From Candidatus Cloacimonadota bacterium (GTDB lineage: Bacteria; Cloacimonadota; Cloacimonadia; Cloacimonadales; Cloacimonadaceae), in contig JAAYKA010000024.1 in the NCBI GenBank assembly GCA_012522635.1, positions 1 to 44,903 on the forward strand: 44,903 nt of DNA, in the 5' to 3' direction. Positions within the stretch are counted from its first letter, which is position 1. Each line of letters opens with the position of its first letter. Under the pieces are notes generated by a model that was not told the origin of the DNA, ran no database searches, and was given only the letters and a program-made list of their open reading frames with translations. Position numbers and translations under genes: made by a program. Shown here piece by piece: positions 16,955 through 44,792 of this stretch.

Positions 16955-18348
16955 GATCTGTCTCCGTTGTATAGAGTGAGCCCCAGCGATCTTTGAAGTT
17001 CGCGAGTGGCGGAAATCACTTCATAGATCGAGTGGTAATATTGCATTTTAATGGCAGACAGGGTGGTTTGAGCGTCGAACACCTCCAACTGTATTCCCGT
17101 CTGACTTTCATAGCGGACGCGAGCCAATTCCAAGCCTCGCTCCGCGATTTCGATATTTTTCTCTTGTACGTTGTGGTTTTGAAGGGCGTTATTCAATTTT
17201 TTATAATCCTGAGTGATCTGCAGCCGGATCAGAGATTCAAAATCCTGTTGCTGCAGCCGCGAAAGCATATAGTCGTGTTTTGCTGCCCGAACTTTTGCCA
17301 AGCTTTGCATTCCGTCGAAAATGGGAATGGAAAATCCCAGGCCAATGCTGAAGTTGGTGCCAAAATCGTCCTTATGGATGGCAAATTCTTCCGCTTTCGT
17401 ATAGAGTGCCGCGCTGGCTTGAAGACCCACGCTTGGCATCAGGGCGCCTTTTTCCACCTTCCACTGCAGTTCTTTCACCTCAGAAGCCATGGAAGCCATG
17501 GCAAGCTCCGCTCTGTTTTGCGTTCCCAAAGTCAAAGCTTCGTCCAAGCTGATTTGTAGAGTCTGAGGCATTTCGAATTCACCTTCGGGGGTCAAATCTT
17601 CATCCGCTCGACCCAGATGAGTGCGAAAAGCAGCCAAAGCCAAATCATAATTACCTTGCGCTTCCAAAAGCTGAGGTTCCAGCTTGGCAACTTCCAAACG
17701 CGCGCGCAAAAGGTCGAATTCAGACACCATTCCTTCACGATAAAAGGCTTCCACTCGAACCAAATGTCGCCGCGCGAGACCCAAGGCCTCCTCTTGCACA
17801 GCGATCACCTTTTCCGTCAACAGACAGGAATAGAAGAGCTTTTCGGTTTGAAGCACCACATCCTGTTCCTTCATTTGCAGGTTCAGGCGTGTGATTTCAC
17901 GGTAGCGCTCGGTGGCTTTCATCCCATTGGCGAGCCTTCCGCCCGCAAAAAGCACCTGATCCAATTGCAGCGATGCCGCAAGTGAACCTTCGTCCATCGG
18001 AGAACTTGGGATCAAATTGTTCGCAATGCCCGAAATTGCGGCAGCCAACAAATAGTCGTTGTCAGTGGAGGTTTCAGGGTTCAGGTAGCCGCCAATATTC
18101 ACCGGAGGCAGTTGCACGGCTTTTGGCAGATGTGTGCGAGCCAGGCTATATTTTCCCTGCAGTGTGAGCTGGGGATACAAGCCGCCCTGAACCTGGGCAC
18201 GGCTTTGATCTGCGATTGCCACTTCCTCGCGCGCCATCAACAGAGAGCTGTTTTGGTCCAGGGCAATAGTAACACTTTCCTGGAGTCCGATGGCAGACAG
18301 GCCAAGCGCCCAGATAAGCGTTATAAGTGCAAAAAAGATACGTTTCAT
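16951..18348 (-). CDS. TolC-family outer-membrane efflux protein
   Basis: Outer-membrane channel of the exporter, 465 residues. It has an N-terminal signal peptide (MKRIFFALITLIWALGLSA) and two internally related halves, each with a long helix rich in Ala, Glu and Leu and a membrane strand region such as GLYPQLTLQGKYSLART and GALMPSVGLQASAALYTK. The repeated LARVRYESQTGIQLEVFDAQTTL near the C-terminus matches the OEP family pattern G-x-x-x-x-L-D-V-L-x-A. The start is 3 bases after the regulator stop. With its neighbours it forms a complete tripartite system. Confidence 0.93.
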   Translation of the reverse strand: MKRIFFALITLIWALGLSAIGLQESVTIALDQNSSLLMAREEVAIADQSRAQVQGGLYPQLTLQGKYSLARTHLPKAVQLPPVNIGGYLNPETSTDNDYLLAAAISGIANNLIPSSPMDEGSLAASLQLDQVLFAGGRLANGMKATERYREITRLNLQMKEQDVVLQTEKLFYSCLLTEKVIAVQEEALGLARRHLVRVEAFYREGMVSEFDLLRARLEVAKLEPQLLEAQGNYDLALAAFRTHLGRADEDLTPEGEFEMPQTLQISLDEALTLGTQNRAELAMASMASEVKELQWKVEKGALMPSVGLQASAALYTKAEEFAIHKDDFGTNFSIGLGFSIPIFDGMQSLAKVRAAKHDYMLSRLQQQDFESLIRLQITQDYKKLNNALQNHNVQEKNIEIAERGLELARVRYESQTGIQLEVFDAQTTLSAIKMQYYHSIYEVISATRELQRSLGLTLYNGDRS

Positions 18349-28873: not shown

Positions 28874-29354
28874 TTAACTGCCTCAATCCAGAGGGCAGCG
28901 GCAGTTCCTTTGTATACTTCACTGTTTTACTAAAACCCCACTTGCGTGCAGTAACCTGCGTTTCAACTCTCAGCTTATTCAACGACAGCCCCAAAAGGTT
29001 CCGAAAACTGCCAAGCTCGAGCGTCAACGGAATTTCCTGATTTTCAGAACGGGCTTCAACGTAATATCCCTGCTGGCAATTGAATTTCAACAAGGTTGCT
29101 TCACCACCGATGAGAGAAACCTCGAAAGGTTCAAGCTGATATCCAATCCGAGCCTTGTTCGTGATTTTCAAAGAAAATGCGAGAACATTCGCAGGATCCG
29201 TCAGAAATTTTTCTGGATTCACCGTGAGAGAGGGTTCCACCTCCGGTTCAAAATCCCAGGTGCTGGCCCAAAGCAGAAAACCAAAGGCTAAAATCAATAG
29301 AATCAGGAGGCTGTGCCACCAGTAGAATTGAAAATAGAAACGTTTCTCGTTCAT
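28818..29354 (-). CDS. Single-pass membrane protein, unknown, 178 aa
   Basis: One N-terminal helix at about residues 14-31 (SLLILLILAFGFLLWAS) anchors an extracytoplasmic beta-rich domain. That domain has the look of a LEA14/NDR1-like (WHy-type) fold: a run of strands such as NVLAFSLKITNKARIGYQLEPFEVSLIGG and IPLTLELGSFRNLLGLSLNKLRVETQV. I cannot confirm that assignment by eye. It has no enzyme motifs. It lies between an M48 protease and the FHA-ABC transporter, and its end overlaps the transporter start by 56 bases, an unusually long overlap. It may be an accessory part of the transporter or a target of the protease. Confidence 0.72.
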   Translation of the reverse strand: MNEKRFYFQFYWWHSLLILLILAFGFLLWASTWDFEPEVEPSLTVNPEKFLTDPANVLAFSLKITNKARIGYQLEPFEVSLIGGEATLLKFNCQQGYYVEARSENQEIPLTLELGSFRNLLGLSLNKLRVETQVTARKWGFSKTVKYTKELPLPSGLRQLNEAREKAENAVSELPKTN

Positions 29355-29374
29355 AAAACTAATCCCAAAAAGGA

Positions 29375-30430
29375 CTACATCTTCTCGATGCGTTCGATTC
29401 GTTTTTGCGCGGTGGGATGGGTGGAAATGAAATCGTTGATGGCCTGGATATTTGGATTTTCCTCAGTGGGTTCATATTTTTGGAGCTTGCGGAAAAAGGA
29501 AATGGCACCCTGTTTGGAATATCCCGCAGCGGTCATCAATTCCACTCCCCGCTTGTCCGCGGCGTATTCAATTTCTTGGGAATAAGGGTGTTTATAGATA
29601 TTGTAGGCAATTCCGACCACCTCCCCAAACAACGGATTAATCTTCCCAGCCCGCACGGAGTGTTGTATTTTTTCCACGCAGTGCTTCAGGTCGTTATGCG
29701 CGATTTCGTGGGCAATCACAAAAGCGAGCTCGTCTTCACGGTCCAAAGCATTCAACATCCCCATATTGATAAAGGTTTTTCCGCCTGCCACGGCAAAAGC
29801 GTTAAAATCACGATCCGCTGTCACGTCGCACTGCCAAGCCAAGTCCCGGCGGGATGATTTGGCTCTAATCTTGCGGAAGACGCCCTGCACATCGAATTTT
29901 GAGGTTCCACCTTTGCCAACTTCCCGGAGGATTTTTTGCCGGAGCTCGGCACCAATCTCATTTTCTTCTTCGATGCTGAGCGCCGTCATATCCAGCAATC
30001 GTTTATCCAATTCGCTGGACAAGCCGGCCAATCCTTCGATTAGACCCATAAGATCGCTCTCCTGGCTTGTCTCTCCCACTTGAGGAAGCTTCAAAAGTTC
30101 GATCAGGTCAATCTCATTTGCCACACATTGCCATTGGCGGTTTCTCTTTTCGAAGGTCAAATGCCCCGGCAGAATTTGCGGTCCAAAACCCAGGGCTGGT
30201 TTGTTCAGCCGGGCCTGATAGTCCATTTCATACCTGCGTTTGCCATTGCTGTAGCCTTCGTTTTGAATGAAAAACTCCTCAATAGAATAATCCTGCCCCA
30301 GATGCTCCTGGATTTGAAGTTCCAGTTTGTCTCGCTCCAGACGAGCCAGCTTGTTGATCTCGTTTTTGTCGCATCCACCCAACAATATTAAGGCTGCCAG
30401 CAAGGCAAGTATGCTGATGTATTTTCTCAT
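29375..30430 (-). CDS. M48-family metalloprotease lipoprotein
   Basis: A zinc protease of 351 residues on the envelope side. The signal peptide ends in LLGGC, so Cys20 is lipidated. A charged N-terminal region of about 150 residues is not recognised. The peptidase domain has the HExxH site as FVIAHEIAHNDLKH at about residues 232-245 and the third ligand Glu in SQEIEYAADKRGVELM, with NMGMLNAL as the upstream strand. Domain order resembles BepA/LoiP-type periplasmic M48 enzymes that act in envelope quality control. The ATG overlaps the phosphatase stop as ATGA, so it belongs to the FHA/PP2C operon. Confidence 0.92.
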   Translation of the reverse strand: MRKYISILALLAALILLGGCDKNEINKLARLERDKLELQIQEHLGQDYSIEEFFIQNEGYSNGKRRYEMDYQARLNKPALGFGPQILPGHLTFEKRNRQWQCVANEIDLIELLKLPQVGETSQESDLMGLIEGLAGLSSELDKRLLDMTALSIEEENEIGAELRQKILREVGKGGTSKFDVQGVFRKIRAKSSRRDLAWQCDVTADRDFNAFAVAGGKTFINMGMLNALDREDELAFVIAHEIAHNDLKHCVEKIQHSVRAGKINPLFGEVVGIAYNIYKHPYSQEIEYAADKRGVELMTAAGYSKQGAISFFRKLQKYEPTEENPNIQAINDFISTHPTAQKRIERIEKM

Positions 30431-31491
30431 CTTTTTGGGTTTCCTCGAAGGTCTTTTTTATCCCCGGAGTTATCTTTATTGTTTGGTTCGGGTTTTAGCG
30501 CGTTTTGCTCTTCCTTTTTGTCCTCTTTCACTTCTGGAACCCTCAGAGTATCAGCGAGAAGCGAATCCGGCTCCGGCGTAACAATCTTCTCACTTTGCGA
30601 TGCCACGTACTGTTTTCCCTTGAAAACTCCGATGTGGAAAGTGTTCATTAAGCTCAGCGTAGCCGCCAAACCCAGAAATACCGTTAAAAACACCAAAATC
30701 AGGGTAAGGAGATTATATGACCCCCTGGGTGTTTCGGACTTGTAAACCTTTCCGCTATTGACTTTTAGAATCTGCACGGTAATGTTGTCTTTGCCTCCAC
30801 GATGGTTGGCTTCGTCAACCAGGTCGCGGCATGCCTGCTGTGGTTCCAATACAAGATAACCATCCAGTTCACGCGGAGTTAGATAATCTGTGAGCCCATC
30901 CGAACAAAGCAGAAATACGTCGTCCCGATAAAGCGGGAATGGACCCTTCACGTCAGCCGGATGCGGTTTTGCGCTCAAGGAACGGGTGATGATGTTTTTG
31001 CGGGGATGGTTGTGGGCGTCCACTTCCGAGATAATCCCGTGATCCACCATCTCCTGCACCCAGGAGTGGTCTCGCGTGATCAGTTTTATTTGACCACCGC
31101 GCCGGAGATAGATGCGGCTATCTCCAATCCAGGCAATCCAATAGCGTTCTCCGCGGATGAGCAAAATAACCGCCGTGGTACCCATTTCAGACATGTCGGG
31201 GTTTTGCTGCGCGTGGGCGGCGATATTTTGTTGAGCCAGGTTCAGAGCTTGATGAAGTTCGTCGTTTTCTTGAAAATCCGTGCCCAATTTCTGAAAGTGG
31301 GACGCGATGGTCTCCACCGCCACCTGGGAAGCAATCTCGCCACCGCTGTAGCCGCCCATACCGTCGCAAACAACAAGCAATTCTCCAAAATCGCCGCTGA
31401 ATTTTCCGTAATAGTCCTGGTTGCTTTCACGCTTCATACCCACATCGGTGAGGTTGCTGATCGTGAATCTGTTTACCGCGTTCGGCTTCAT
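30427..31491 (-). CDS. PP2C-type Ser/Thr protein phosphatase with membrane anchor
   Basis: Metal-dependent phosphatase that should remove phosphate from Ser/Thr. Residues about 8-245 are the PP2C domain: SNQDYYG, VCDGMGGYSGGEIAS (metal-binding Asp-Gly), WIGDSRIYL, ITRDHSWVQ, LLCSDGLTDYL and GGKDNITVQIL are all intact. A membrane helix follows at about 257-282 (LLTLILVFLTVFLGLAATLSL). A highly charged tail of some 70 residues would then lie outside the cytoplasm. Total length is 354 residues. It is in an operon with three FHA proteins but no kinase, so it should oppose a kinase encoded elsewhere. The gene starts 8 bases past the stop of the vWA-FHA gene. Confidence 0.95.
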   Translation of the reverse strand: MKPNAVNRFTISNLTDVGMKRESNQDYYGKFSGDFGELLVVCDGMGGYSGGEIASQVAVETIASHFQKLGTDFQENDELHQALNLAQQNIAAHAQQNPDMSEMGTTAVILLIRGERYWIAWIGDSRIYLRRGGQIKLITRDHSWVQEMVDHGIISEVDAHNHPRKNIITRSLSAKPHPADVKGPFPLYRDDVFLLCSDGLTDYLTPRELDGYLVLEPQQACRDLVDEANHRGGKDNITVQILKVNSGKVYKSETPRGSYNLLTLILVFLTVFLGLAATLSLMNTFHIGVFKGKQYVASQSEKIVTPEPDSLLADTLRVPEVKEDKKEEQNALKPEPNNKDNSGDKKDLRGNPKR

Positions 31492-31499
31492 AAAAAACC

Positions 31500-33053
31500 T
31501 CAGACCAAATAAAAACGGCCTTCGTTCGAGCCCAGCTTGAATGTTGCTTCCGGATCAATACGGCAGATGCTGACCTTCTGACCGCTCACATGCGTCCCAT
31601 TCATCGAGCCCAGGTCTTCAATGAAGAATTGTCCGTCGGCCCAGTAAATGCGCGCGTGTTGGGAAGACACGGTTGAGTCGTTCATCACGATTGTGTTTCC
31701 GGGTGAGCGGCCAATGCTGGCTCCCTCTTTTCCAATTCTAAAACTGCGACCCTGCTCTGTGCCATAAACCACTTTCAAAACCAGTTCGGAAAAACCACCC
31801 ACCGGAGCGCCGCCGGGGTCCAGAATCACGGTGCGTTCCCGATCCATTGGCTCCGGAGGCTTAATCCTGCGGGTTTCTTCTTCGCGGCGGGTTTGCTCCT
31901 GCCTGATACGATCTTCCTCAAGCCGATGTTCTCTCTCCACACGCTCCTGGTTTTCACGGCGCTGTCGTTCCGCTTCCTCAAGCCGACGTCTTTCCTCGGT
32001 CTGGCGAATTTTCTTCTGCCTGTTTAAAAGGAATATCAAAAGCCCGACGACAATCAGCAAGAAAGCTGCCGCGCCCAAAATCCATCCCAGTGGAAAGCCT
32101 TTTTTGCCATCGGAATCCAAGTCTTCCGGTTGGATTGCCTCCTCCACAGGGACCAATACCTGAGCAGGTTCATGCAGGCTGGCACTGTTTTCGCCCACCT
32201 GCAGAGTGATATTCAAATCTTTAAGCTTGCCATCGCCAGCCAGATTGAAAACAGGATAGTTGAGAATCCAGGAACCCAATATCTGGCGCTGAACCTTGGA
32301 AAAGTGTTTGTTCAAACTCTCGGGACTGGGCGCGTGGTAATAGCTGCCGCCGGTTTCGTCGGCAATTCTTTCCATATATTGCAAAAACTGTTTTTCCACC
32401 TTGGTGTAGCCCACGGTAAAAATGGGCAAATGCTTTGCCCTGGATGTTTTTAAGGCTTCTTCCAAGGTGTAGGCTTCGGCTGGATTTTCTTCTTTTCCGT
32501 CCGAAAACAGAATCATGTAGCGCCCATCGTGTTTCGGTTTTTTTGAGCCCAGATGGTCCAAACCTTTGTGGATGGCGTAATACAGCGATGTGTCTCCGCT
32601 TCTGACCTTCAGATCATTAATGCTCTTACGCAAGAGCTCTGTATCCGTGGTAAAATCGCAAACCACCTCCGCTTTTTCGCTGAAAGCCATGATGCAGATC
32701 TCGTCTTGAGGCCGTTTTTCATCAATAAAAGTAAGCAGACCGCTTTTCACGCTGTTCAAGGGTTTTCCACCCATCGAACCGGAAACGTCCACGTTTATCA
32801 AAACGGAAAGCCCCTGCCCGGAAGATTCAAAGGTGCTCACACTATAAATGCTGTCCACCTCGATGCCGCCAAAATTGATTTTGAAGTTTTTCGGGTTTAG
32901 TTTTTGCAGGGGTTCGTCGTCCGCGTCCAGCGTCAAAACAGTGCTTTGCACGGCTTTGGGAAAACCATCCGCGTTTGTTCGCAGGTGATGAATGCTGATA
33001 TTTTGCGCCCAAAGCGGCGCGAACAGCAGAAGCAGGGTCAGCAGTTTACGCAT
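31500..33053 (-). CDS. vWA-transmembrane-FHA protein
   Basis: A two-sided sensor-like protein of 517 residues from ATG 33053, chosen over TTG 33065 because GAGGTG lies just upstream and the signal peptide MRKLLTLLLLFAPLWA begins there. The extracytoplasmic part has a vWA domain (about residues 80-260) with a complete metal site: DVSGSMGG, a Thr in TSLY and FSDGKEE. A helix at about 324-343 crosses the membrane. A highly charged segment of Arg/Glu repeats follows (about 350-400). Then come the motif ERTVILDP near residue 408 and a C-terminal FHA domain (about 430-515) with GRSPGNTIV, SSQHARI and SMNGTHVSG. It could relay ligand binding outside to phospho-dependent contacts inside. Confidence 0.93.
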   Translation of the reverse strand: MRKLLTLLLLFAPLWAQNISIHHLRTNADGFPKAVQSTVLTLDADDEPLQKLNPKNFKINFGGIEVDSIYSVSTFESSGQGLSVLINVDVSGSMGGKPLNSVKSGLLTFIDEKRPQDEICIMAFSEKAEVVCDFTTDTELLRKSINDLKVRSGDTSLYYAIHKGLDHLGSKKPKHDGRYMILFSDGKEENPAEAYTLEEALKTSRAKHLPIFTVGYTKVEKQFLQYMERIADETGGSYYHAPSPESLNKHFSKVQRQILGSWILNYPVFNLAGDGKLKDLNITLQVGENSASLHEPAQVLVPVEEAIQPEDLDSDGKKGFPLGWILGAAAFLLIVVGLLIFLLNRQKKIRQTEERRRLEEAERQRRENQERVEREHRLEEDRIRQEQTRREEETRRIKPPEPMDRERTVILDPGGAPVGGFSELVLKVVYGTEQGRSFRIGKEGASIGRSPGNTIVMNDSTVSSQHARIYWADGQFFIEDLGSMNGTHVSGQKVSICRIDPEATFKLGSNEGRFYLV

Positions 33054-33061
33054 GATGCACC

Positions 33062-33715
33062 TCAAACCGTTTTAAGCTTCAAATCCACCGTGGCGATGCG
33101 GATAATATCGTTTTCATTCAGATAAACCTTGTCCTCAATCATCTCGCCATTCACGAAAGTACCGTTTGAGGAAAGGTTGTCTTCGATGATATATTTGCCG
33201 TTACGACAGAGCAGAACAGCATGTTCGGCAGAAACACCGGGTATGGACAGCCGAATGTCGCAGTTTTGCGCGCTACCGATGATGTGGCGTCCCTGGTAGA
33301 GCTTGTAATCCCGTCCCATGGGATCGATGTCGAAGGTCACCAGCCAACCCGTGAGCATCCGATTTGCCTGGGGACGAGGTTTGGCTTCAGAGCCTGATTC
33401 AGCTTCAGGCTCGCTGGGTTCTGCTCCCAGAATCACAGTTTTGTCGTCCGCTGGGGCAGAAGGAGCGGCGTGTCCTGGCTGGAGGCGTGCTTTGGAGGTA
33501 TCCAACCGGGTTTTATCCACGTCATCACCCATTCTGGCGGTGGGCTGCAAACCCAGGTTATCACGAGCCGGCGGGCAATGTGGACAGGCAGGCAAGCTGG
33601 CATCGTAGTCGTGGCCATTCGGACAGGTGCGCAAGTTCGAGCGCAGCGCTTTTCCGCATGATTTGCAAAAAATGGCGTGGTCTGGATTGATGGCATTGCA
33701 AGCGGGGCATTTCAT
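33062..33715 (-). CDS. Double zinc-ribbon FHA protein
   Basis: Cytoplasmic protein of 217 residues. A zinc ribbon at 3-21 (CPAC and CKSC) is followed by a second Cys/His cluster at 31-47 (CPNGH and CPHC). A flexible Ala/Pro/Glu-rich linker (about 50-120) carries VDKTRLD at Thr69 and DDKTVILG at Thr93. Residues about 144-215 are the FHA domain with IIGSAQNCD, SAEHAVL and SSNGTFVNG. The Thr motifs match FHA ligands, which favour I/L/D at the third place after phospho-Thr, so self or partner binding after phosphorylation is plausible. GGAG precedes the ATG. It is the first annotated gene of the signalling operon after a tiny leader frame. Confidence 0.9.
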   Translation of the reverse strand: MKCPACNAINPDHAIFCKSCGKALRSNLRTCPNGHDYDASLPACPHCPPARDNLGLQPTARMGDDVDKTRLDTSKARLQPGHAAPSAPADDKTVILGAEPSEPEAESGSEAKPRPQANRMLTGWLVTFDIDPMGRDYKLYQGRHIIGSAQNCDIRLSIPGVSAEHAVLLCRNGKYIIEDNLSSNGTFVNGEMIEDKVYLNENDIIRIATVDLKLKTV

Positions 33716-34062: not shown

Positions 34063-34090
34063 TAGAAAACCAAATCAGGAGGTGATGAAA

Positions 34091-34423
34091 ATGAAAAAAC
34101 TGCTGTTCCTTTTGCTTGCCTTGTTCGCCGTAAGCGCCTTTGCCGGTTCTGTTTACGTGATGGACACCGGCAAGGCCGATCTCAATATCTGGGTTTGCCA
34201 ATATAAAAGCGAAGCCGACATCTGCGTGTATGTGGATGAATACCGCTCCGCCGCCAAAAACAAGGACTGCATCTGGTTTTTCGAGCGCTATAAAAGCAGT
34301 GCCGACTTCACGGTGAAATTCGTTAAATATAAATCCCAGGCAGATTTGAAGGTGTATTACGTGAAATATAAATCTCAGGCTGAGTGGCGAAAATCACACG
34401 CTTGGACGGGTAGGCTGCAATAA
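34091..34423 (+). CDS. Secreted DUF6150-like repeat protein
   Basis: A small exported protein of 110 residues. ATG 34091 is chosen because AGGAGG (34077-34082) lies 8 bases before it; GTG 34082 and ATG 34085 are too close. The signal peptide is MKKLLFLLLALFAVSAFAGS. The mature part is built of short strand repeats of about 11-12 residues carrying Y-K-S-x-A-D: QYKSEADICVYV, EYRSAAKNKDCIWF, RYKSSADFTVKF, KYKSQADLKVYY and KYKSQAEW. This fits what I recall of DUF6150 proteins of Bacteroidetes and relatives, which have no known function. It is probably a small all-beta fold. The two Cys in the early repeats could pair. Confidence 0.8.
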   Translation: MKKLLFLLLALFAVSAFAGSVYVMDTGKADLNIWVCQYKSEADICVYVDEYRSAAKNKDCIWFFERYKSSADFTVKFVKYKSQADLKVYYVKYKSQAEWRKSHAWTGRLQ

Positions 34424-34955: not shown

Positions 34956-35033
<78 letters not shown>

Positions 35034-35045
35034 CCCTTTCTTTTG

Positions 35046-35122
35046 GGGTGATTAGCTCAGCTGGTTAGAGCGCTACGTTCACATCGTAGAGGTCACTGGT
35101 TCGAATCCAGTATCACCCACCA
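35046..35122 (+). tRNA. tRNA-Val (anticodon CAC)
   Basis: A complete cloverleaf 12 bases after the first tRNA. It is identical to the first except for the wobble base (loop TTCACAT, anticodon CAC) and the D-loop, where C replaces TT. CCA is encoded at 35120-35122. It reads GUG. Confidence 0.96.
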
Positions 35123-35133
35123 CCTCCTTTAAC

Positions 35134-35158
35134 GCCCCCTTTCGAGGGGGTTTTTCTT
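35134..35158 (+). terminator. Intrinsic terminator after the tRNA pair
   Basis: CCCCCT, loop TTCG, AGGGGG is followed by TTTTTCTTTT. It ends the tRNA transcript. The remaining 217 bases to the next gene hold a TTGACA at 35301-35306, a likely -35 box of the DUF6754 cassette, with no clear -10 box at 16-18 bases. Confidence 0.88.
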
Positions 35159-35375: not shown

Positions 35376-38369
35376 ATGAAGTTGCACATACGTGCTTTAG
35401 CTTTGATCGTGCTGCTCGGACTGCTGGCCTTTGGCTGTAGCGGACCCTCTGGTGCGGATCAGAAAAAGCTTGGCAAACAGACCGTTAGCAACCTCAAGGT
35501 TGAAGATATTCGCGGTGACGGCGGCGACGGCCTGATGCTGAGTTGGAAACCACTACCCAAGGAAAGCAGAGTTCAGGAATACCGCGTCTATCGTGGAGTC
35601 CATCCAGACACATTGTTTTTCCTCGCCGCGGTGCAGGTGAACGTCAAAACCGGCGTTGGCACGGATGAAATGTTCTATTCTGACAGCGGCTACAATCCAT
35701 TGGTGAGCCTGGATTCACCCCGCAAGCTGAAAAACGAGCGCGGAGCAAAGGGCAGTGTTTTGTATCAGGGCGTCCCACGGGATGCCGAAATCATGGCCCG
35801 CCTCAGCGAATGTTACAATCTTTTCACGCAGATGGATGCCAAAGATTATTATTACAAAACCAAGAAAACAAGATCGGCAAATCCGGAGGATGAAAGCATT
35901 TATGCCGGGGTTCAATTCAACCAGCAGACCATTCTGGCTTCCTTAAAAAGCCGGAGTGAAAGCCCTGAACCGATCAAATACTATTACACGGTTGTCCCTG
36001 TGAACGAGCGTGGACAGTATCTTGGCATATCCAAACCCGTGTTCGGAACCCCGGATGATGATCCGCCAGAAGCCTCTCCCGGCCTCTACTGCGCTGCCAT
36101 CGAAGACCTGCAGGAACTCCGCTTTGAATGGGAATATCCCATCAGCCACGACGATATCCAAGTATATGAAATCCTGATGCTTGGTAATTTGGAAACCCCC
36201 AACCGGGAAAACACCATCTCCGTGGCGAGAGGCCCCGTGGGCGGTGGAGCTTTGAAAAACAACTGTGTCCTGCCGTTTGCCCAATTTGAAGCCATGGGCA
36301 TCGCTCGCAGTTGGGAAGGTTTGAAAGATTCCCATTTTGTGATTCAGTTTACCGATGGTGGCAGAAATCAATCAGGATTCAGTGAACCCTCACAGCCTGT
36401 TTTGGCTCACAGCCGCGACCTGCCCCAAACCCCGGTTTTCCGTGTGGAAGACAAACCGATGGATAAAGGTGACCGCATTTCCGTCATTTGGCAGGAGCCT
36501 GTGGTATCCATCACAAAAACTTCCGCCGTAAATGGCAAGGGCACCAAACTGAAGATAAACTATGAGATTAACAAAACCGACAGCCAAAAGCTGAAAAACA
36601 TCTATTTTGACTTCTATGAACCCGGAAAAGACAAACCATTTGCAACCATAAACGAATTTCATCAGGACAACATCATCCACCTGAATATCCCCGAAAAGTA
36701 TTCTCTCAAGGGACAAAAATTTCCCCAGGACAGTCTGAAGGTGCGCATCACCATTGCCAGCCAGCCCTATAAGATTAACCCCAAAAACGGGCGCATCGTA
36801 TATGAAAAGACACGCCTGGTGGAAAATTATGAACTGGTGCAATATCTGAAGCCAGATCCGGTGATGGTGGCCTACATGCCCACGCGTCAGCTTTTCCTGA
36901 ACGGTCAGGATGTTTCCACCATGCAAAACGTGGTGTATCGCAAAGGCTACCGTGGCAGTTCCTTCACTCAGGTGAAGACCAACACTTCCTACGAAAACAA
37001 CCTGGACGTGGCGGTGAATTACATCGCAAAAGTTGGTCAGCCAGTGCTGGGCTTCAACTTCGTGAAAGACAATACACTTTTCACATATATGAACGGCCAG
37101 CGTTTTTCCCGCAAACTCGCGTCAGGCGAAAAGGCCCAAGACCTTGCCCTGCTGCCTTCGCAGATAGATTTCACCCTGGATAATGACAGCCAAAGCCTGC
37201 TGTACTCCAGCATCTATCTGGATGAAGCCAAAAACACCGTTTCAAACCTGAAAAAAGATCTGCAGGATAAGAAAAAAGAACTGGCTGAGGACCAAAAAGC
37301 CCTCGCCATGCCCAACCCGGAAGGCGCGTTGACACTGGCGGCAAAGATTGAAGCTGGCGAAAAACAGATTGAGGCTCTCCAGGCAAAAATCGAAGCCTAC
37401 GAAAAGAATCCGCTGTTCGCGCAAGCATTGAAAGCCAAAAGCAGCCGCGCGCTGATGAGGCTTGTGTCTTCAGTGCGCGAACCGGAACAGCGCAAACATA
37501 ACTACACGATGTTCCGCACCAATGGCAAGGGACTTTTCACGGAAGCGGCTCCAGACACCTTGAATGAAGATTATGTCTATTACGCGCCCATTTCCAACTG
37601 GTTCGACTGGAACAAATTAATCTCACTTTTCGCCGTGATTATCTTCGGTGCCATGGTGGTCATTTTTGTGAACCTCGCCAAAAAAGGCAAGGATCTCTAC
37701 ATGCGTCCCATTGCGGGATTGGAGGAAATCGACAACGCCATCGGCCGTGCCACAGAAATGGGACGTCCAATGCTGTATTGCATGGGCAATGGCAGCCTTT
37801 CCGACGTCGCCACTCTGGCCTCCATGGGCATCCTCAGCCTCGTCGCCAAAAAAGCGGCGGAATATGATACCAAACTGATTGTTCCCTGCTACGACTACAT
37901 TGTGATGCCCATCGCCCAGGAAATCGTGCGCGATGCCCACTACGCGGTGGGTCGCCCGGACAGCTATGAGAAGGACAACGTTTTCTATCTCACGTCCGTG
38001 CAGTTTGCCTATGTGGCAGGCGTGAACGGAATCATGATCCGCGAACGTATGGCCACAAACTTTTTCATGGGCTACTTTGCCGCCGAAGCTCTGTTGATGA
38101 CGGAAACCGGAAACGCGGTTGGCGCCGTGCAGATTGCCGGCTCAGACGCCATCACCCAGATTCCCTTTTTCATCACCACCTGCGACTACACTCTCATCGG
38201 CGAAGAGCTTTATGCCGCTTCGGCATACCTGAACCGCGAGCCCATGCTTTTGGGCACTCTGAAAGCTCAGGACTATTTCAAGTTCCTGATCCTTGTTTTC
38301 ATTATTGCCGGTGCCGTTCTGGCCAGCTTCCAGATGACCGGATTGATGCAATTTTTCCCTTTAAAATAA
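35376..38369 (+). CDS. Giant lipoprotein with DUF6754-like membrane domain, paralogue 1
   Basis: A 997-residue envelope protein from ATG 35376 (AGGAG 8 bases upstream; TTG 35370 adds only two residues). The signal peptide ends LAFGC, so it is a lipoprotein. An Fn3-like domain follows at about 35-125 (VSNLKVEDIRGDGGDGLMLSWKPLP, YRVYRGVHPDTLFFL), then further beta-rich modules to about 610 and a coiled coil at about 615-680. A first helix lies at about 747-767, with a conserved domain at about 775-965 starting RPIAGLEEIDNAIGRATEMGRP, and a last helix at about 970-990. With a lipidated N-terminus outside, the conserved domain should be cytoplasmic. I recall this C-terminal domain as DUF6754, of no known function. 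It is the first gene of a five-gene cassette and has a paralogue at its end. Confidence 0.85.
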   Translation: MKLHIRALALIVLLGLLAFGCSGPSGADQKKLGKQTVSNLKVEDIRGDGGDGLMLSWKPLPKESRVQEYRVYRGVHPDTLFFLAAVQVNVKTGVGTDEMFYSDSGYNPLVSLDSPRKLKNERGAKGSVLYQGVPRDAEIMARLSECYNLFTQMDAKDYYYKTKKTRSANPEDESIYAGVQFNQQTILASLKSRSESPEPIKYYYTVVPVNERGQYLGISKPVFGTPDDDPPEASPGLYCAAIEDLQELRFEWEYPISHDDIQVYEILMLGNLETPNRENTISVARGPVGGGALKNNCVLPFAQFEAMGIARSWEGLKDSHFVIQFTDGGRNQSGFSEPSQPVLAHSRDLPQTPVFRVEDKPMDKGDRISVIWQEPVVSITKTSAVNGKGTKLKINYEINKTDSQKLKNIYFDFYEPGKDKPFATINEFHQDNIIHLNIPEKYSLKGQKFPQDSLKVRITIASQPYKINPKNGRIVYEKTRLVENYELVQYLKPDPVMVAYMPTRQLFLNGQDVSTMQNVVYRKGYRGSSFTQVKTNTSYENNLDVAVNYIAKVGQPVLGFNFVKDNTLFTYMNGQRFSRKLASGEKAQDLALLPSQIDFTLDNDSQSLLYSSIYLDEAKNTVSNLKKDLQDKKKELAEDQKALAMPNPEGALTLAAKIEAGEKQIEALQAKIEAYEKNPLFAQALKAKSSRALMRLVSSVREPEQRKHNYTMFRTNGKGLFTEAAPDTLNEDYVYYAPISNWFDWNKLISLFAVIIFGAMVVIFVNLAKKGKDLYMRPIAGLEEIDNAIGRATEMGRPMLYCMGNGSLSDVATLASMGILSLVAKKAAEYDTKLIVPCYDYIVMPIAQEIVRDAHYAVGRPDSYEKDNVFYLTSVQFAYVAGVNGIMIRERMATNFFMGYFAAEALLMTETGNAVGAVQIAGSDAITQIPFFITTCDYTLIGEELYAASAYLNREPMLLGTLKAQDYFKFLILVFIIAGAVLASFQMTGLMQFFPLK

Positions 38370-38381
38370 AAGAGGTCCCTA

Positions 38382-39008
38382 ATGAAGAAAACCATACCGC
38401 TATTGGTCGTAATCCTTGGAGGGTTCATCTGGTTGGCTTGGGTGTTTGTGCCCCACAGATTGCTCCAGGATGTTTTCTACTATGATTTCTACCTGCCCTG
38501 GGCTCGTGCCATGGCTCCTTTTGGAATGCTTTTGGGCGTGATGAGCCTCTCCATGATGCACTATGGCAAAATCCGCCGCAAGGCTCCAAAATGGCAATAC
38601 AGCTTCTTTTTCTTTGCCGGATTCATTGCCACCTCACTGGCCGGGTTCATCGGAGGCACCCAAAAAGGCGGCCTGTACATGTGGCTGTTTGAAAACCTGC
38701 AAATGCCGATGAGTTCCACGATGTTCTCGCTTCTGGCGTTTTACATGGCATCAGCGGCCTACAAGGCTTTCCGAGCCCGCTCGGCTGAAGCCACAGTGCT
38801 GCTGATTGCCGCCATCATCGTGATGCTGGCCCAGGTTCCCCTCGGCGTGAAAATTAGCCGCCATCTGCCTGATATTTCGCAGTGGATTTTGGACGTTCCA
38901 AACCTTGCCTCAAAACGTGGCATCATGTTGGGCGTGGGTCTTGGCAGCGTTGCCACCACCCTGAAAATCCTGTTGGGAATTGAACGCTCGTATCTGGGAG
39001 GAGATTGA
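38382..39008 (+). CDS. Polytopic membrane protein of the DUF6754 cassette, 208 aa
   Basis: I do not recognise this protein. It has about six hydrophobic helices (residues about 5-25, 43-63, 73-92, 108-127, 138-156 and 183-200) joined by short loops with Arg/Lys on one side. No transporter or enzyme motif is visible. AGAGG lies 7 bases before the ATG, 12 bases past the stop of the giant lipoprotein, so it is co-transcribed. Size and helix count match the third membrane gene of the cassette (40217-40831), with which it may pair, though the two do not align clearly. Confidence 0.8.
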   Translation: MKKTIPLLVVILGGFIWLAWVFVPHRLLQDVFYYDFYLPWARAMAPFGMLLGVMSLSMMHYGKIRRKAPKWQYSFFFFAGFIATSLAGFIGGTQKGGLYMWLFENLQMPMSSTMFSLLAFYMASAAYKAFRARSAEATVLLIAAIIVMLAQVPLGVKISRHLPDISQWILDVPNLASKRGIMLGVGLGSVATTLKILLGIERSYLGGD

Positions 39009-39010
39009 TC

Positions 39011-40204
39011 ATGGAAGAAAAACTCACCCTGTTTGAACGCATCCAAAAGCTTGACCGCCGCTGGGTTTATATCGTTGTGGCGCTGGCGATTATCATTCCG
39101 CTGATGCTTCCCTACAACTCCGACAACGTCACCTCGCCGCCCACGGAAAATGTCTATCAAATGATTGATTCCTTCGCGGGACGTGAAGACCGCGCCATCC
39201 TGATGAGCTTCTATCACGATGCTTCCACCATGTCGGAACTTTATCCCATGCAGGTTGCCATCATCCGCCACTGTTTTGAACGCAACGTGAAGGTCTTTTT
39301 TCTGTCCTTCCTTCCTCAAGGTGCGCCCATCATTGACATGGCCATCAACACAGTCAAGGAAGAATATCCCCACATCAAAAGCGGAACGGACTATTGCAAC
39401 TTTGGCTATATCCCGGCTTCGCTGATTATGGCCACCGTGATTGGAATGGGTGATAACATCGCCACCGCGGTTCCCACCGACGCCGAAGGGCGCAAAGTGG
39501 AAAACCTGCCCATCATGAAAGGAATCACAAACTACACCGAGATGAACTTGGTGATTGAATTCTCCGGCTCGGTTGCAGGTGGTTATTGGCTTGCCTACGC
39601 CCGTCCCAAATTTGGCACAAACATCGCCGTGGGCGTCACTGCTGTGATGGCAGCGGATGAATATCCCTATCTGCAAACCGGCCAATTCATTGGCATGCTG
39701 GCAGGCCTCAAGGGCGCCGCTGAATATGAAAAACTGGTGGATGTCTTTGCCGCCTACCGTGAACCGGGTCAACCACTTATCCCCTACGTGGATGCCAGCG
39801 GTAAAAAACACGTGCCAGGCCGCCCCTTCAGCGAAGACCTTCTGGAAAAATCCGATATTCAGGATTTGATTAAGATTACCACCCAAACCGAAGCCAAATT
39901 CACCTCCGCGGAGTTTGAAAGCTTCGTCACCACACAATCATTGACCGACCAGGCAAAGATTCGCCAGGCTAAAACAGAATCCGACGGCAAAATATTAATC
40001 GATGTCAGCAAGCTGAAAGAGGACGATTTTGAGTCCGGCACCTGGAGCGCGCTGAACCGTATGACGCGCAACACGCCATATAAATTCAAGGTCGCCCGCA
40101 TCGGCATGAACGCCCAATCAGTTGCCCACATGATGATTATCGCGTTCATCCTGATCGGAAACATCGGCTACTTCATACAACGCGCCCGCACAGGCAAGAA
40201 ATAA
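39011..40204 (+). CDS. Bitopic membrane protein of the DUF6754 cassette, 397 aa
   Basis: A protein with one helix near residues 17-34 (WVYIVVALAIIIPLMLPY) and one near the C-terminus (VAHMMIIAFILIGNIGYFIQ). Between them lies a domain of about 325 residues that should lie outside the cytoplasm if the N-terminus is inside. It has a Rossmann-like feel: alternating strands and helices in DRAILMSFYHDASTMSEL, RHCFERNVKVFFLSF, GYIPASLIMATVIG and NIAVGVTAVMAADEYPYLQ. No nucleotide-binding loop or catalytic motif is evident. ATG 39011 has GGGAGGAG 8 bases upstream; TTG 39005 overlaps the previous stop and adds two residues. The family is unknown to me. Confidence 0.8.
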   Translation: MEEKLTLFERIQKLDRRWVYIVVALAIIIPLMLPYNSDNVTSPPTENVYQMIDSFAGREDRAILMSFYHDASTMSELYPMQVAIIRHCFERNVKVFFLSFLPQGAPIIDMAINTVKEEYPHIKSGTDYCNFGYIPASLIMATVIGMGDNIATAVPTDAEGRKVENLPIMKGITNYTEMNLVIEFSGSVAGGYWLAYARPKFGTNIAVGVTAVMAADEYPYLQTGQFIGMLAGLKGAAEYEKLVDVFAAYREPGQPLIPYVDASGKKHVPGRPFSEDLLEKSDIQDLIKITTQTEAKFTSAEFESFVTTQSLTDQAKIRQAKTESDGKILIDVSKLKEDDFESGTWSALNRMTRNTPYKFKVARIGMNAQSVAHMMIIAFILIGNIGYFIQRARTGKK

Positions 40205-40216
40205 AGGGAGCATATC

Positions 40217-40831
40217 ATGACCTTTGAACTCTTTAGCAATCTGGTGGGTGCATTTTTCACCCTCTGCATCTTCTCGTTCCTCTACAAGGATAACCCGCTC
40301 TATCAGATGTCCGAACAGCTTTTGGTGGGAATTTCCCTGGGATATTCGCTGGTGTTGGTTTACGAACGCACCTTCATCCCCTTCTTTGTGCAGCCCATTT
40401 TCCTGAAGCATGAATGGATTCTCATCATTCCCAGCATCATTGGAATGTTCTATCTGCTGCGCTTTTCCCGCAAACTGAGCTGGCTGTCGCGCTATCCCAT
40501 TGCCTTTTCGATGATGGGAGTTGGCGCCTCTGTGGCTTTGGCGATGCACAACAGCATCCTGGTGCAGATGCGCCAAGCCATGGTGCCGCTGGAAAGTGTG
40601 AACCTGGCGCTCATCTTCATCGGAACCATCGCCGTGCTGCTCTATTTCTTCTTTTCCAAGGCCCACACCGGGGTTTATGGAAAGTTTGTGGACATCGGAA
40701 AATGGTTCATGATGGTGGGCTTCGGAGCCTCCTTCGGACTCACCGTGATGGCGCGTATTTCGCTGTTAATCGGGCGAATCCAGTTCCTGGTAAACGACGT
40801 TTTCATGGCCATAAAACAGGCCTGGTTCTGA
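40217..40831 (+). CDS. Polytopic membrane protein of the DUF6754 cassette, 204 aa
   Basis: A second six-helix protein: helices at about residues 8-25, 38-58, 72-90, 98-118, 126-145 and 158-185. Charged residues are few and lie in loops (KDNPLYQMSEQLLVGISLG, RTFIPFFVQPIFLKHEW). It has no recognisable transporter motif. GGGAG is just upstream of its ATG, 13 bases past the previous stop. An intrinsic terminator-like hairpin follows 15 bases after its stop, so it may be the last gene on most transcripts. Confidence 0.8.
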   Translation: MTFELFSNLVGAFFTLCIFSFLYKDNPLYQMSEQLLVGISLGYSLVLVYERTFIPFFVQPIFLKHEWILIIPSIIGMFYLLRFSRKLSWLSRYPIAFSMMGVGASVALAMHNSILVQMRQAMVPLESVNLALIFIGTIAVLLYFFFSKAHTGVYGKFVDIGKWFMMVGFGASFGLTVMARISLLIGRIQFLVNDVFMAIKQAWF

Positions 40832-40845
40832 TGATTTCCTCTTTT

Positions 40846-40879
40846 GGGGGAAGACCAGCATGGCTTCCCCCCTTTAGTT
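40846..40879 (+). terminator. Intrinsic terminator or attenuator inside the DUF6754 cassette
   Basis: GGGGGAAG plus CCA pairs with TGG plus CTTCCCCC across a GCA loop with one bulged A, followed by a T-rich run ending TTTTTT. It lies between the third membrane gene and the second giant lipoprotein gene, on the coding strand, and should lower expression of the second one. Confidence 0.72.
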
Positions 40880-40912
40880 TTTTCAAACCAATAAAATATT
40901 GAGAGCCTTCTG

Positions 40913-43756
40913 ATGCGCAGAAATATATTCGCACTGATTTTGGCCACTTTGGCAACGCTGCTGCTCCTATCCGGATGCGGCAACGACGCTAAAAAAGTAG
41001 CCCAAATCCAAGAGTTTACCGTGGAGGACATTCCAAACGACGAAGGTGCTGGGATACAATTGAAATGGACGCCTCTGGACAAATCCCAGCGCGTGATTCA
41101 ATATAACATCTATCGTGGCCACAGCCCGGACAGCCTCTTTTATCTCAGCAAAATCGAAGTGGACCCCGATGTGGGCGTGGTTGGCGGCTCGTTGAACTAC
41201 ACAGATCAAGGTTTTGGCCTGCTAATCGAATTTGAAACAGCTCCCGCTAAGCTGAAAGCCGAAAAACAGCAGGTTGCAGACAAAACCACGCTCTTCAAAT
41301 CCATCCCCCGCGACCCGAAGTTTTTGGCTCAGATTCTGCCCCATTACCTGGTCTTGGGCTCCATCCCCAGCAATAAATTTTACAATCAAGCCAAGCGGAT
41401 TGAGATGAAAGGCAAGGATGAAAACGAGGTTTTTGCCGGTTACAGACTTTCCTCTTTCGATGTGATTGTTGCCCGCCTCCAGGACGAAAAACCCTATTAC
41501 TATTGCGTGGTTCCCGTAACCGAAACAGGAAAATACCTGCCCGCCACCCAGGTGAAGCACGCCAAAGCTAAAAATAATCGTCCGGATTCCACCGCCATTT
41601 TCTATTCCTCATATCTGACGGATAAAAACGAATTCCGCTTCGAATGGATTCCACCTCAGGGCGGAACGGACATCGTTGTTTGGCAAACCTGGCTGATGCC
41701 CAAATCATTATTACCCAATTTCAACGCGGACCAAGAAGCCAATGCCAGCGCACCGGACGAGGTTTTCCACGCTTCCTGGCAGGCTGCCTCCATCCCCATC
41801 GCGCAAATCCCCAACCCATACCGCGGACAGGTGATTTACGCCAAAGCCGGGCCCCAGGAGCTTTTGGGACAGATTCCCTCGGAAACAAACCTGGCAAACT
41901 ACATCCCGGTAATCACTTACATGGACAACATGGGATTTAAGAATGCCGCTGTGGGACACGAACTCGTGCAAACAAAAAGCACTGAACTGCCCCAGCTTCC
42001 CCACTATCAGATTTTGGATAAAACCAACGACAAGGGCGACAATATCATCATCTCTTTTGGCAGACCTTTCGCCTTTGTGTCCCAAGCCGCTTGGAAAAAT
42101 AAAGCCAACACCAAGCTGCGCCTGAACTATGACATCTCCGAAAACGGACACCAAAGCATTTCCAAACTGCGTTTCCGCTTTTTCGACACGGATGACACTC
42201 TGCTCAAGGAAGTGATTGAAACCCATCCGGATAAAACCATTTGGGTTTATTTCCCCAAAGACCGGGACCCTCACAAGGATTTCCGCGTTGAAATCAGCGC
42301 CCTCCTGGTTGGGGAAAAGAAGTTCTCCGATGTGGCGGTATCCCAGATTGTCTCTTGGGACAGCTCTTCCAGCCGCTTTATGGGTGGCGATCTCAGCAAT
42401 CATGGTCAGGTGTTAAATAATATCTACTACGACATCTTCAGCCGCGACCGTCTCGGCGATTTCAGCCCCGGAATGCGCATTGGCGCGCTTTCCAGGTCCT
42501 ATGACCACACCATTTCCTACCTCAATTCCGAAACCCTACAGCTCATCACGATTGACCCTAAAACCAATCTCATTTTGGTGGACCCCAGTTTCCTGGTGGC
42601 AATCGATGAAGAAACCGGCGCCATGTTTGCACCTTCCCTCTTCAAAGAAGATACCGAAACCGAAATGGCTGAGTTGAACGACCAAATCAAAGCCTTGAAA
42701 AAAGACGCTCAGGGTGAAGGCTCCAAAACCCAGGAAGCCGCTCAGCAACTTCAAGCTCTTTTGGCACAACAGAAATTCGTGCTTTCCAACCCCTCCTACC
42801 TGGCGGGAAAAGATGCCAAATCCGACCGCGCCTGGCGCAAAATCATGCGTAAAGAATTGGATGTAAACTCCCGCTCTTATGCCTACAAACTTCTGGTGAC
42901 CGATGGTCAGGGAGTTTGGAGCGATGAGGAAGACCTGCCAGACCACGACCCCAACAAAAAACCCGAATTTCTATACCCCCAAAACGAATGGTTCGACACC
43001 AGCAAATGGGCAACCCTCATTGCCTCCATCGTGATGGGCATCATGGTGGTTGTGGCGCTTTACCGTGCCCGCCGCTTTGACCTCTACATTCGCCCCATCG
43101 CGGGTTTGGAAGAGTTGGACAACGCCATTGGCCGCGCCACCGAGATGGGACGTCCCGTGATGTTTGTGCCCGGCTGGGGAACTTTGGGTGACCCTTGCAC
43201 CATTTCCGCGATGATGATTCTGAACCAGGTTGCCAAAAAGACCGCTGAATATGACATCCGCATCATCTCCCCGCATGTGGACTACCTTGTTCTGCCCCTG
43301 GCTCAGGAAATGGTTCTCACTGCCTACAACGAAGCCGGCCGCTCCGACGCCTACAACCCTGATGACATCTATTTCGTCTCCGATTCCCAGTTCGCGTTCA
43401 GCGCCGCGGTGAATGGAATCACCGTGCGCGAAAAGGTGGCAACCATCTTCTACATGGGCTATTTCAACGCAGAAGCCCTGCTGATGACCGAAACCGGAAA
43501 CCAATCCGGCGCCATCCAAATCGCCGCCTCCGACGCCATCACCCAGATTCCCTTCTTCATCACCACCTGCGACTACACTCTCATCGGTGAAGAATTCTAC
43601 GCCGCGTCGGCCTACCTCTCCCGAAATATCGAACTGGTGAGCATGCTGAAGGCGCAGGACTATTTCAAGCTGCTCATCGTGGTCTGCGTGCTGGTTGGAA
43701 CCCTCCTCTCCAGCCTGGGGGTAAACTTCCTGCTGAATTTCCTGCCTGTGGAATAA
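40913..43756 (+). CDS. Giant lipoprotein with DUF6754-like membrane domain, paralogue 2
   Basis: A 947-residue paralogue of the protein at 35376-38369 with the same order of parts: lipobox LLLSGC (Cys22), Fn3-like domain at about 30-115 (VEDIPNDEGAGIQLKWTPL, YNIYRGHSPDSLFYL), beta-rich modules, a coiled coil at about 582-630, helix one at about 700-722, conserved domain at about 725-915 (RPIAGLEELDNAIGRATEMGRP) and helix two at about 918-938. The N-terminal halves are only distantly alike, while the C-terminal domains are closely alike, with ITQIPFFITTCDYTLIGEE identical. The ribosome binding site is weak (GAGAG 9 bases upstream). It is separated from the cassette by a hairpin, so it may be expressed at a different level. 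Confidence 0.85.
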   Translation: MRRNIFALILATLATLLLLSGCGNDAKKVAQIQEFTVEDIPNDEGAGIQLKWTPLDKSQRVIQYNIYRGHSPDSLFYLSKIEVDPDVGVVGGSLNYTDQGFGLLIEFETAPAKLKAEKQQVADKTTLFKSIPRDPKFLAQILPHYLVLGSIPSNKFYNQAKRIEMKGKDENEVFAGYRLSSFDVIVARLQDEKPYYYCVVPVTETGKYLPATQVKHAKAKNNRPDSTAIFYSSYLTDKNEFRFEWIPPQGGTDIVVWQTWLMPKSLLPNFNADQEANASAPDEVFHASWQAASIPIAQIPNPYRGQVIYAKAGPQELLGQIPSETNLANYIPVITYMDNMGFKNAAVGHELVQTKSTELPQLPHYQILDKTNDKGDNIIISFGRPFAFVSQAAWKNKANTKLRLNYDISENGHQSISKLRFRFFDTDDTLLKEVIETHPDKTIWVYFPKDRDPHKDFRVEISALLVGEKKFSDVAVSQIVSWDSSSSRFMGGDLSNHGQVLNNIYYDIFSRDRLGDFSPGMRIGALSRSYDHTISYLNSETLQLITIDPKTNLILVDPSFLVAIDEETGAMFAPSLFKEDTETEMAELNDQIKALKKDAQGEGSKTQEAAQQLQALLAQQKFVLSNPSYLAGKDAKSDRAWRKIMRKELDVNSRSYAYKLLVTDGQGVWSDEEDLPDHDPNKKPEFLYPQNEWFDTSKWATLIASIVMGIMVVVALYRARRFDLYIRPIAGLEELDNAIGRATEMGRPVMFVPGWGTLGDPCTISAMMILNQVAKKTAEYDIRIISPHVDYLVLPLAQEMVLTAYNEAGRSDAYNPDDIYFVSDSQFAFSAAVNGITVREKVATIFYMGYFNAEALLMTETGNQSGAIQIAASDAITQIPFFITTCDYTLIGEEFYAASAYLSRNIELVSMLKAQDYFKLLIVVCVLVGTLLSSLGVNFLLNFLPVE

Positions 43757-43841: not shown

Positions 43842-44792
43842 ATGAGAGTTTTGGACAAAGGTTTCTGCCTCCTGCTGGTTTTAATGTTGCTCTCGGTGGC
43901 GCTTGGCGCTGCAAACCGGCGTGTAATCAGCTTCGCGGGTATGGATTGGTGGGTCAAATCCGGCCATTACGGTCCCGGGCCGAACCATTTTTCAGACTCC
44001 GCCGAAAGCGTTTGGGTGGATGAAAATGGCAAGCTTCACCTGAAAATCCGTCAGATTGATGGTTTGTGGCATTGCGCCGAAGTTTGGACCCTCGCGCCCG
44101 CCGGCTGGGGAAACTATCTTTTCTGGCTGGAAAGCCAGGTTGACCTCTATGACCCCAACGTGGTGGCAGGGCTTTTTCTCTATCAGGATGACGACCACGA
44201 AATCGACATCGAATTCTCACGCTGGGGAGACCCCGATTATCCCTGCGGCAGCTACAGCATCCAACCCTATTACCATCAAGGAAATAACCGCGCCTTTGCA
44301 ATGGACTTGCAAGGCTCCTGGACCTCACATTCCTTCAATTGGCAGCCGGATTATATCGACTTTCAAAGCCTGCACGGGCACTATTCCGAAGCCTCAGATG
44401 ACGGCTTCATCATCGACCAATGGCACTACACCGGAGCGGATAACCCTGCCGAATCTCCCGAAATGCTTCTGCACATCAATCTTTGGCTGATGAGCGGCTT
44501 GTCTCCCACAGACGCCAGTGAAGCGGAACTCATTGTCTCTCATCTCGTTATAACACCGGGAGTTGTGATTACTCCACCCGCTCTCCGCATCCAGCAGCTT
44601 CATCCCGAAAGCGTTCTTCTGAGCTGGGACCCTGTGCCCAACGCCCTGTCCTACCAGGTTTTCCAATCCGATATCCCGCTCAATCCTGCCAGCCTTGGTT
44701 GGACGGAACTGACTGCCACTTCCGCCACCAGCCTCGAACTCAGTTCCCAAGCAAGAAACAAATTCTTTTACGTCCGCGCTCTCAGGGAATAG
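43842..44792 (+). CDS. Secreted GH16-like protein with C-terminal Fn3-like domain
   Basis: An exported protein of 316 residues; the signal peptide is residues 1 to about 25 (CLLLVLMLLSVALGAA). Residues about 30-245 resemble a family 16 glycoside hydrolase jellyroll. The catalytic pattern E-x-D-x-E is seen in HEIDIEF near residue 125, and a substrate face rich in Trp and Tyr surrounds it (CAEVWTLAPAGWGNYLFWLES, HLNLWL-type end). Residues about 248-315 are an Fn3-like module (IQQLHPESVLLSWDPVPNALSYQVFQSD). A beta-glucan or related glycan is a plausible substrate but cannot be named. AAAGGAA precedes the ATG. It follows the second giant lipoprotein after a hairpin and could share its transcript. 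Confidence 0.75.
   Translation: MRVLDKGFCLLLVLMLLSVALGAANRRVISFAGMDWWVKSGHYGPGPNHFSDSAESVWVDENGKLHLKIRQIDGLWHCAEVWTLAPAGWGNYLFWLESQVDLYDPNVVAGLFLYQDDDHEIDIEFSRWGDPDYPCGSYSIQPYYHQGNNRAFAMDLQGSWTSHSFNWQPDYIDFQSLHGHYSEASDDGFIIDQWHYTGADNPAESPEMLLHINLWLMSGLSPTDASEAELIVSHLVITPGVVITPPALRIQQLHPESVLLSWDPVPNALSYQVFQSDIPLNPASLGWTELTATSATSLELSSQARNKFFYVRALRE

Follow-up and report, generated by a model that had tools for sequence, protein, structure and literature searches.

Which membrane assembly is encoded by the five-gene cassette at positions 35376-43756 of this stretch of Candidatus Cloacimonadota bacterium DNA (contig JAAYKA010000024.1; all 44,903 nucleotides of it are called the window here), and around which of its proteins is that assembly built? 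The list of open reading frames (ORFs) of the window confirms five on the + strand, spanning these positions in the order A-M1-R-M2-B. A (35376..38369, 997 residues) is a giant DUF6754 protein and B (40913..43756, 947 residues) a second giant DUF6754 lipoprotein, paralogous to A (DUF6754 E 2.3e-117 and 2.5e-109, respectively). Between them lie the polytopic membrane proteins M1 (38382..39008, 208 residues) and M2 (40217..40831, 204 residues) and, at 39011..40204, R, modelled as a Rossmann-like domain, predicted to be extracytoplasmic, between two transmembrane (TM) helices. An earlier annotation made from the letters alone, here the original prediction, had described a single-strand cassette of just this make-up, with two DUF6754 paralogues of 997 and 947 residues, and had taken it to be built around the two giant lipoproteins. 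The description holds, and the second point does not: the window cassette represents, in the enlarged form seen in Cloacimonadota, a four-gene membrane module, D-M1-R-M2, which we define in this analysis and in which D is a short DUF6754 protein.

To survey the module, one genome per species was scanned (84,980 species), which gave at least 582 candidate stretches; 577 were confirmed and the best 80 of these 577 kept, ORFs being called in each locus and then searched with profiles of D, M1, R and M2. The best 80 of 577 come from Cloacimonadota, Zixiibacteriota, WOR-3/Stahlbacteria, Edwardsbacteria, Coatesbacteria, Eisenbacteria, Latescibacterota, Poribacteria, Fermentibacteria, Armatimonadota, Planctomycetota, CSSED10-310 and Mcinerneyibacteriota, and absence from further phyla rests on 14 control genomes. 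M1-R-M2 directly follow D in 89 of the 103 D genes with at least 2.7 kb of sequence downstream, across at least 13 phyla, a recurrence of gene order that is far above chance. Nine of the 14 exceptions are a trailing B gene; in three the genes are present but rearranged or split, and in two M1-R-M2 are missing. Many genomes carry two to three modules in tandem, and in the window the module order is seen on one strand as A-M1-R-M2. All D proteins match DUF6754 (PF20539) far above its cut-off, with an identity to the window domain that is mostly 45-55% across phyla. The source genome itself has a second cassette, on contig C106, consisting of a 273-residue lipoprotein-like protein, a 371-residue DUF6754 protein, M1, R and M2, and a one-contig relative genome shows the same arrangement. 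Hence the membrane genes are widespread without the giants, the short-D copy of the source genome included, a finding that the original prediction had itself named as refuting, and because M1-R-M2 usually go with a short DUF6754 protein, the idea of a cassette built around giants fails. The gene for the 273-residue protein, which is helical, lies directly 5' of the short DUF6754 cassette of the source genome (L034, 7524-8345), and a similar gene stands 5' of the short cassette in L035 (6357-7154). A mobile-element origin of the module was considered and rejected, no relatives having been found in the viral contigs, plasmids or phages searched.

The components of D-M1-R-M2 are gained and lost together. 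Among 118 Planctomycetota genomes, D, R and M2 each occur in the identical 29 (Fisher 3e-28, Fisher values being inflated by the shared ancestry of genomes), and in Armatimonadota the presence of D and R is concordant in 147 of 151 genomes. D is found in 122 of 125 Cloacimonadota genomes and R in 119 of 123, and the three genomes without D (G050, G061 and G096) are also without R. Nor does joint presence depend on adjacency: in genome G216, D and MutL-BSH (described below) lie at 3.91 Mb and M1-R-M2 at 5.87 Mb, and in G156 megabases likewise separate D from R. Joint presence of D and R without linkage is what an obligate complex predicts. From gene order and co-occurrence we conclude that D, M1, R and M2 very probably form an inner-membrane hetero-complex as its obligate core. 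The original prediction of one heteromeric envelope complex is in this respect supported by gene order, by the co-occurrence of D, R and M2, and by the unlinked D and R, and its expectation that the membrane families accompany DUF6754 is borne out by the order at 89 of 103 D genes and by the coincidence of D, R and M2 in Planctomycetota. Operon structure alone would allow unrelated envelope genes to be merely co-transcribed, but such an absence of any complex is contradicted by the order shared across phyla and by the co-occurrence of D, R and M2, unlinked D and R included, and we regard it as extremely improbable.

What, then, are the giants? The DUF6754 domains, which together with their flanking TM helices occupy 37593..38357 in A (Pfam match and AlphaFold2 (AF2) model) and 42980..43738 in B (Pfam match), score 391.1 and 364.8 bits against a cut-off of 27 and cover nearly the full length of the Pfam model, and DUF6754 is the sole Pfam domain above cut-off in either protein. 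A and B share a plan of lipobox-like signal (LAFGC in A, LSGC in B), beta-rich ectodomain, coiled coil, TM helix, DUF6754 and final TM helix, and are identical at 43% of the 436 aligned columns of the C-terminal part and at 27% of the 464 of the N-terminal part. A part resembling fibronectin type III (Fn3) had been proposed for the large proteins, and the D-protein profile, built nearly wholly from short D forms of other phyla, indeed matches titin Fn3 domains (E 1.5e-23, profile positions 27-112). The giants (42 rows) group together within Cloacimonadota, with support of 100/97, in a maximum-likelihood tree of DUF6754 domains; the short Cloacimonadota copy branches elsewhere, and B makes up its own long-stemmed clade of 13 rows inside the giant clade (100/99). 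Nested in this way, B is a later duplicate of the A type that arose within Cloacimonadota; the lineage of locus L054 may have duplicated its giants independently. Giants of the A and B types are a Cloacimonadota elaboration and limited to that phylum; an unrelated large D of 1160 residues, with a different ectodomain, is present in Mcinerneyibacteriota (L087).

The ectodomain also bears on whether the cassette is a sensor, in which external Fn3 and beta domains would sense or bind and signal to a cytoplasmic DUF6754 domain. Ectodomain, TM helix and cytoplasmic domain do stand within a single chain, and ectodomain size differs by lineage while the cytoplasmic domain is conserved. The ectodomain is dispensable, however: DUF6754 frames of 260-300 residues, too short for an Fn3 ectodomain, are common in Armatimonadota and present in Poribacteria, which weakens this reading. 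In addition, no kinase, cyclase or response regulator recurs beside the module among the recurrent neighbours examined, A, B and the neighbours examined contain no signalling output domain or recurrent signalling partner, and a simple sensor would offer no evident role for M1 and M2. We therefore consider signal transduction an unlikely function. Fn3 is a generic beta module that is uninformative on mechanism, and although the D ectodomain matches titin-type Fn3, the shortest D proteins are too small to contain such a domain.

The existence of two non-identical large subunits, from which a heteromeric assembly had been suspected, is real, as B is a separate, faster-evolving clade and a loop in R is larger in the lineages that have it. 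Lying immediately before the second TM helix (pre-TM2), this extracytoplasmic loop is usually 15 residues long where D is short; it has about 50 where a module contains one Cloacimonadota giant, and the lineage carrying B has 117-130. The R of the window carries the large loop typical of lineages with B. The pattern of loop lengths fits a contact between R and the giant ectodomains.

M1 has roughly six TM helices and the conserved motifs LLAFxxASAxxxAF and GIERxxxGG, and M2 conserves SFLYKDNPxY and FGAxFGxTVMxRxSLLIxR. Both had been called six-helix proteins, which agrees with the approximate number given by hydropathy, although the exact count is not settled. R had been called bitopic with a Rossmann-like domain; the domain is there, but the protein spans the membrane twice, with a hydrophobic helix at each end. 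M1, R and M2 have no Pfam or NCBIfam match above cut-off, PDB sequence profile searches returned no relatives of the three and only Fn3-type domains for the D profile, and, for known transporter and secretion families in particular, M1, R and M2 showed neither a curated Pfam or NCBIfam match nor a PDB relative. Homology between M1 and M2 was rejected, as profile-profile comparison gave none. In locus L078 (4075-6009), R has an array of HEAT-like repeats, recognised by eye, inserted within its Rossmann-like domain, and in a chromosome-level Zixibacteria genome (L101, 11538-13253) R and M2 form a single 571-residue open frame, which is either a natural fusion or a sequencing error.

The DUF6754 domain is, like the soluble part of R, Rossmann-like. 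AF2 modelled residues 711-997 of A, the DUF6754 region, with a mean predicted local distance difference test score (pLDDT) of 86.6, and R with 93.0. Fold searches with the DUF6754 model against the PDB, and with the R model against the PDB and a viral library, gave nothing usable; the only match with E < 0.001 had a TM-score of 0.32 and a root-mean-square deviation of 9.2. Both models present an identical order of 15 secondary-structure elements in a TM-(alpha/beta)-TM arrangement. By the positive-inside rule and the signal peptides, the DUF6754 domain would face the cytoplasm, the R domain outward, and the Fn3 ectodomain of D would lie in the periplasm, so that DUF6754 and R look in the models like one architecture in opposite membrane orientation. 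The shared order of elements suggests a common origin of D and R, which is not proven because alternating alpha/beta folds are common; homology of their soluble domains was not upheld by profile-profile comparison, which gave a probability of 1%.

The module has further partners in the cytosol. In several phyla, D is preceded on its 5' side by genes for a MutL/GlmL-type ASKHA protein, for a protein of 375 residues here called BSH, and for a small protein, S, and in Planctomycetota S-MutL-BSH-D-M1-R-M2 form a seven-gene operon (L121, L127, L128 and L129). Cloacimonadota have S-MutL-BSH as a separate operon, which in the source genome (G000:C50) lies on another contig than the cassette. Proteins of the MutL/GlmL family (PF13941, NF040745, TIGR01319) are ASKHA accessory proteins of B12-dependent mutases, which GlmL is thought to serve as activator or reactivator. 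The MutL-type partner of the module shares this Pfam family (E 7e-129 and 7e-132 to PF13941 in the two tested). Unlike GlmL equivalogs, it scores well below the NCBIfam cut-offs (221.6 vs 475 bits), its consistent neighbours are BSH, S and D-M1-R-M2, and no mutase gene was recognised beside it in the loci read. BSH was followed genome-wide, and S and MutL by operon only. In Planctomycetota, BSH and D are both present in 25 genomes, D only in 4, BSH only in 1 and neither in 88; the corresponding numbers in Armatimonadota are 127, 2, 8 and 14. We consider it likely that S-MutL-BSH is linked to the module; the linkage of BSH and D is strong, yet looser than that within the core, because BSH persists in genomes without D, and for this reason MutL and BSH were rejected as parts that are obligatory everywhere. 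Natural fusions of the MutL-type ASKHA protein with BSH, of about 1000 residues, occur in several Cloacimonadota (L134, 5821-8826; L135, 5404-8571; L136, 8759-11608), which suggests that the two act as a pair.

The nature of BSH raises the further question of ion coupling. BSH has no Pfam family above cut-off, its barrel-sandwich-like matches are weak, and a profile search of the PDB gave no credible relative. It bears a weak likeness to the NqrA/RnfC barrel-sandwich subunits of ion-pumping oxidoreductases, with matches to NQRA_N, RnfC_N and biotin_lipoyl, and there are invariant charges in or near predicted TM helices (E33, R180 and R187 of M2, E201-R202 of M1 and H375 of R), as might be expected of an energy-transducing machine in which H+ or Na+ would pass through M1 and M2, with the soluble domains coupling this flow to cytoplasmic chemistry. 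Unlike NqrA/RnfC, however, BSH stays below the curated cut-offs (for NQRA_N, 15.4 bits where 25 are required) and no redox subunits were recognised nearby; neither a flavin, Fe-S or quinone motif nor a recurring redox neighbour gene was evident, and we judge such a machine decidedly improbable.

How these parts might work together can be sketched as follows. M1 and M2, with the four TM helices of D and R, would provide a membrane path, while the alpha/beta domains of DUF6754 and R, one on each side of the membrane, would handle the substrate or act as gates. The GlmL/MutL-type ASKHA protein, with BSH and S, would dock on the DUF6754 side and power or prime the cycle. Fn3 ectodomains would lengthen the outer part of the complex, and in Cloacimonadota these may have grown into two giants, probably an A/B heteromer that touches the enlarged loop of R. 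The putative membrane path, the two-sided alpha/beta domains and the ASKHA partner lead us to the doubtful but possible reading of an ATPase-coupled envelope transporter or translocase, for a substrate that we do not name. Complex, trio and transport mechanism taken as a whole are the best explanation that we can offer, and a tentative one.

Several observations weigh against it. No membrane subunit resembles a known transporter in the Pfam and PDB profile searches. Cloacimonadota genomes without D and R still retain the S-MutL-BSH operon (BSH in G050, G061 and G096), eight Armatimonadota genomes carry BSH without D, and the trio may have an additional job. The loop of R is long in L076 although D there is short, short in L087 although D is large, and 47 residues long in L054 despite its two giants; these cases weaken a strict tie between loop length and giants, and the pattern may reflect only one or two events. 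Finally, DUF6754 is strongly conserved and keeps E, D, Q and R residues invariant, as would be equally fitting for an enzyme. Such a membrane-bound enzyme would have DUF6754 catalyse at the inner leaflet on a lipid-, glycan- or cofactor-linked substrate, the ASKHA protein and BSH activate or reactivate it, and R act on the other leaflet. DUF6754 ranks among the best-conserved parts, and its invariant polar residues are numerous (R, E, Q, C-D, E-E), with several located at the ends of strands beta4-beta6 of its model; the MutL-type partner matches GlmL models; and some weak fold matches are metabolic, for example SIS-domain isomerases and NADPH:quinone reductase. But these fold matches are poor, with a TM-score, by query length, of about 0.2-0.3; no biosynthetic genes consistently neighbour the module; and a simple enzyme would have no need of two further polytopic subunits or of an alpha/beta domain outside the cytoplasm, so that we think catalysis rather unlikely.

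Is the module, then, a known system? Its Pfam entry describes PF20539 only as a domain of unknown function, and none of the sources searched contained the module, the giant forms or the partners M1, R and M2. The literature searched does not mention DUF6754 or the module, the closest work being a general catalogue (PMC10849945) that collects unknown families of uncultivated taxa and may list parts of the module. These searches brought up no known system that combines the same parts; we regard the module as a new system, and the giants as a lineage-specific variant of it. Returning to the transport reading, we would describe the system, with considerable doubt, as an undescribed inner-membrane machine coupled to an ASKHA ATPase, having up to seven subunits and occurring across many phyla, most of them uncultivated, with TM-(alpha/beta)-TM subunits of inverted topology, possibly from an ancient inverted duplication, and with periplasm-scale heteromeric Fn3 extensions in Cloacimonadota. 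Being kept by 122 of 125 Cloacimonadota, most Armatimonadota and a quarter of Planctomycetota, the module is likely important to these cells, although three of its four core families, and BSH, reach the cut-off of no Pfam family. As it is also present in phyla with cultivated members, its function is directly testable; the co-occurrence data name the exact partners for co-expression, and as a structural target the module is attractive, two of its folds having been modelled with confidence and neither having a confident counterpart in the PDB.

Some features of the window cassette depend on details of its layout. The gaps A/M1, M1/R and R/M2 measure 12, 2 and 12 bases; 12, 2 and 13 had been given, of which the first two stand, the 2 only if R begins at ATG 39011 (397 residues) rather than at TTG 39005 (399 residues). 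An internal hairpin had been noted, and one can form between M2 and B, on the + strand at 40846..40871 and followed by a T-rich stretch, although its folding is only modestly better than that of shuffled sequences (z -1.48); it is a possible attenuator or terminator. Immediately 5' of the cassette, at 34956-35151, are tandem tRNA-Val genes (anticodons GAC and CAC) with a terminator-like hairpin, and upstream of these, at 34082-34423, a gene for a small secreted DUF6150-family protein with repeated YKSxA motifs. Downstream, at 43842-44792, a 316-residue secreted protein appears GH16/lectin-like by eye (EIDIEFSRWG), with an Fn3-like C-terminal part and no Pfam match up to E 1; its gene also lies 3' of B in L036 (16255-17211). 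Farther upstream on the - strand, 26861-33715 encodes FHA, zinc-ribbon, VWA-FHA, PP2C phosphatase, M48 peptidase and FHA-ABC2 transporter proteins, apparently a phospho-signalling envelope system. On the same strand, 25084-26652 encodes an NlpC/P60 peptidase fused to a PGA_cap (capsule synthesis) domain in a single protein, and 12826-18348 a full RND efflux set of AcrB-type pump, HlyD-type adaptor and OEP outer-membrane protein.

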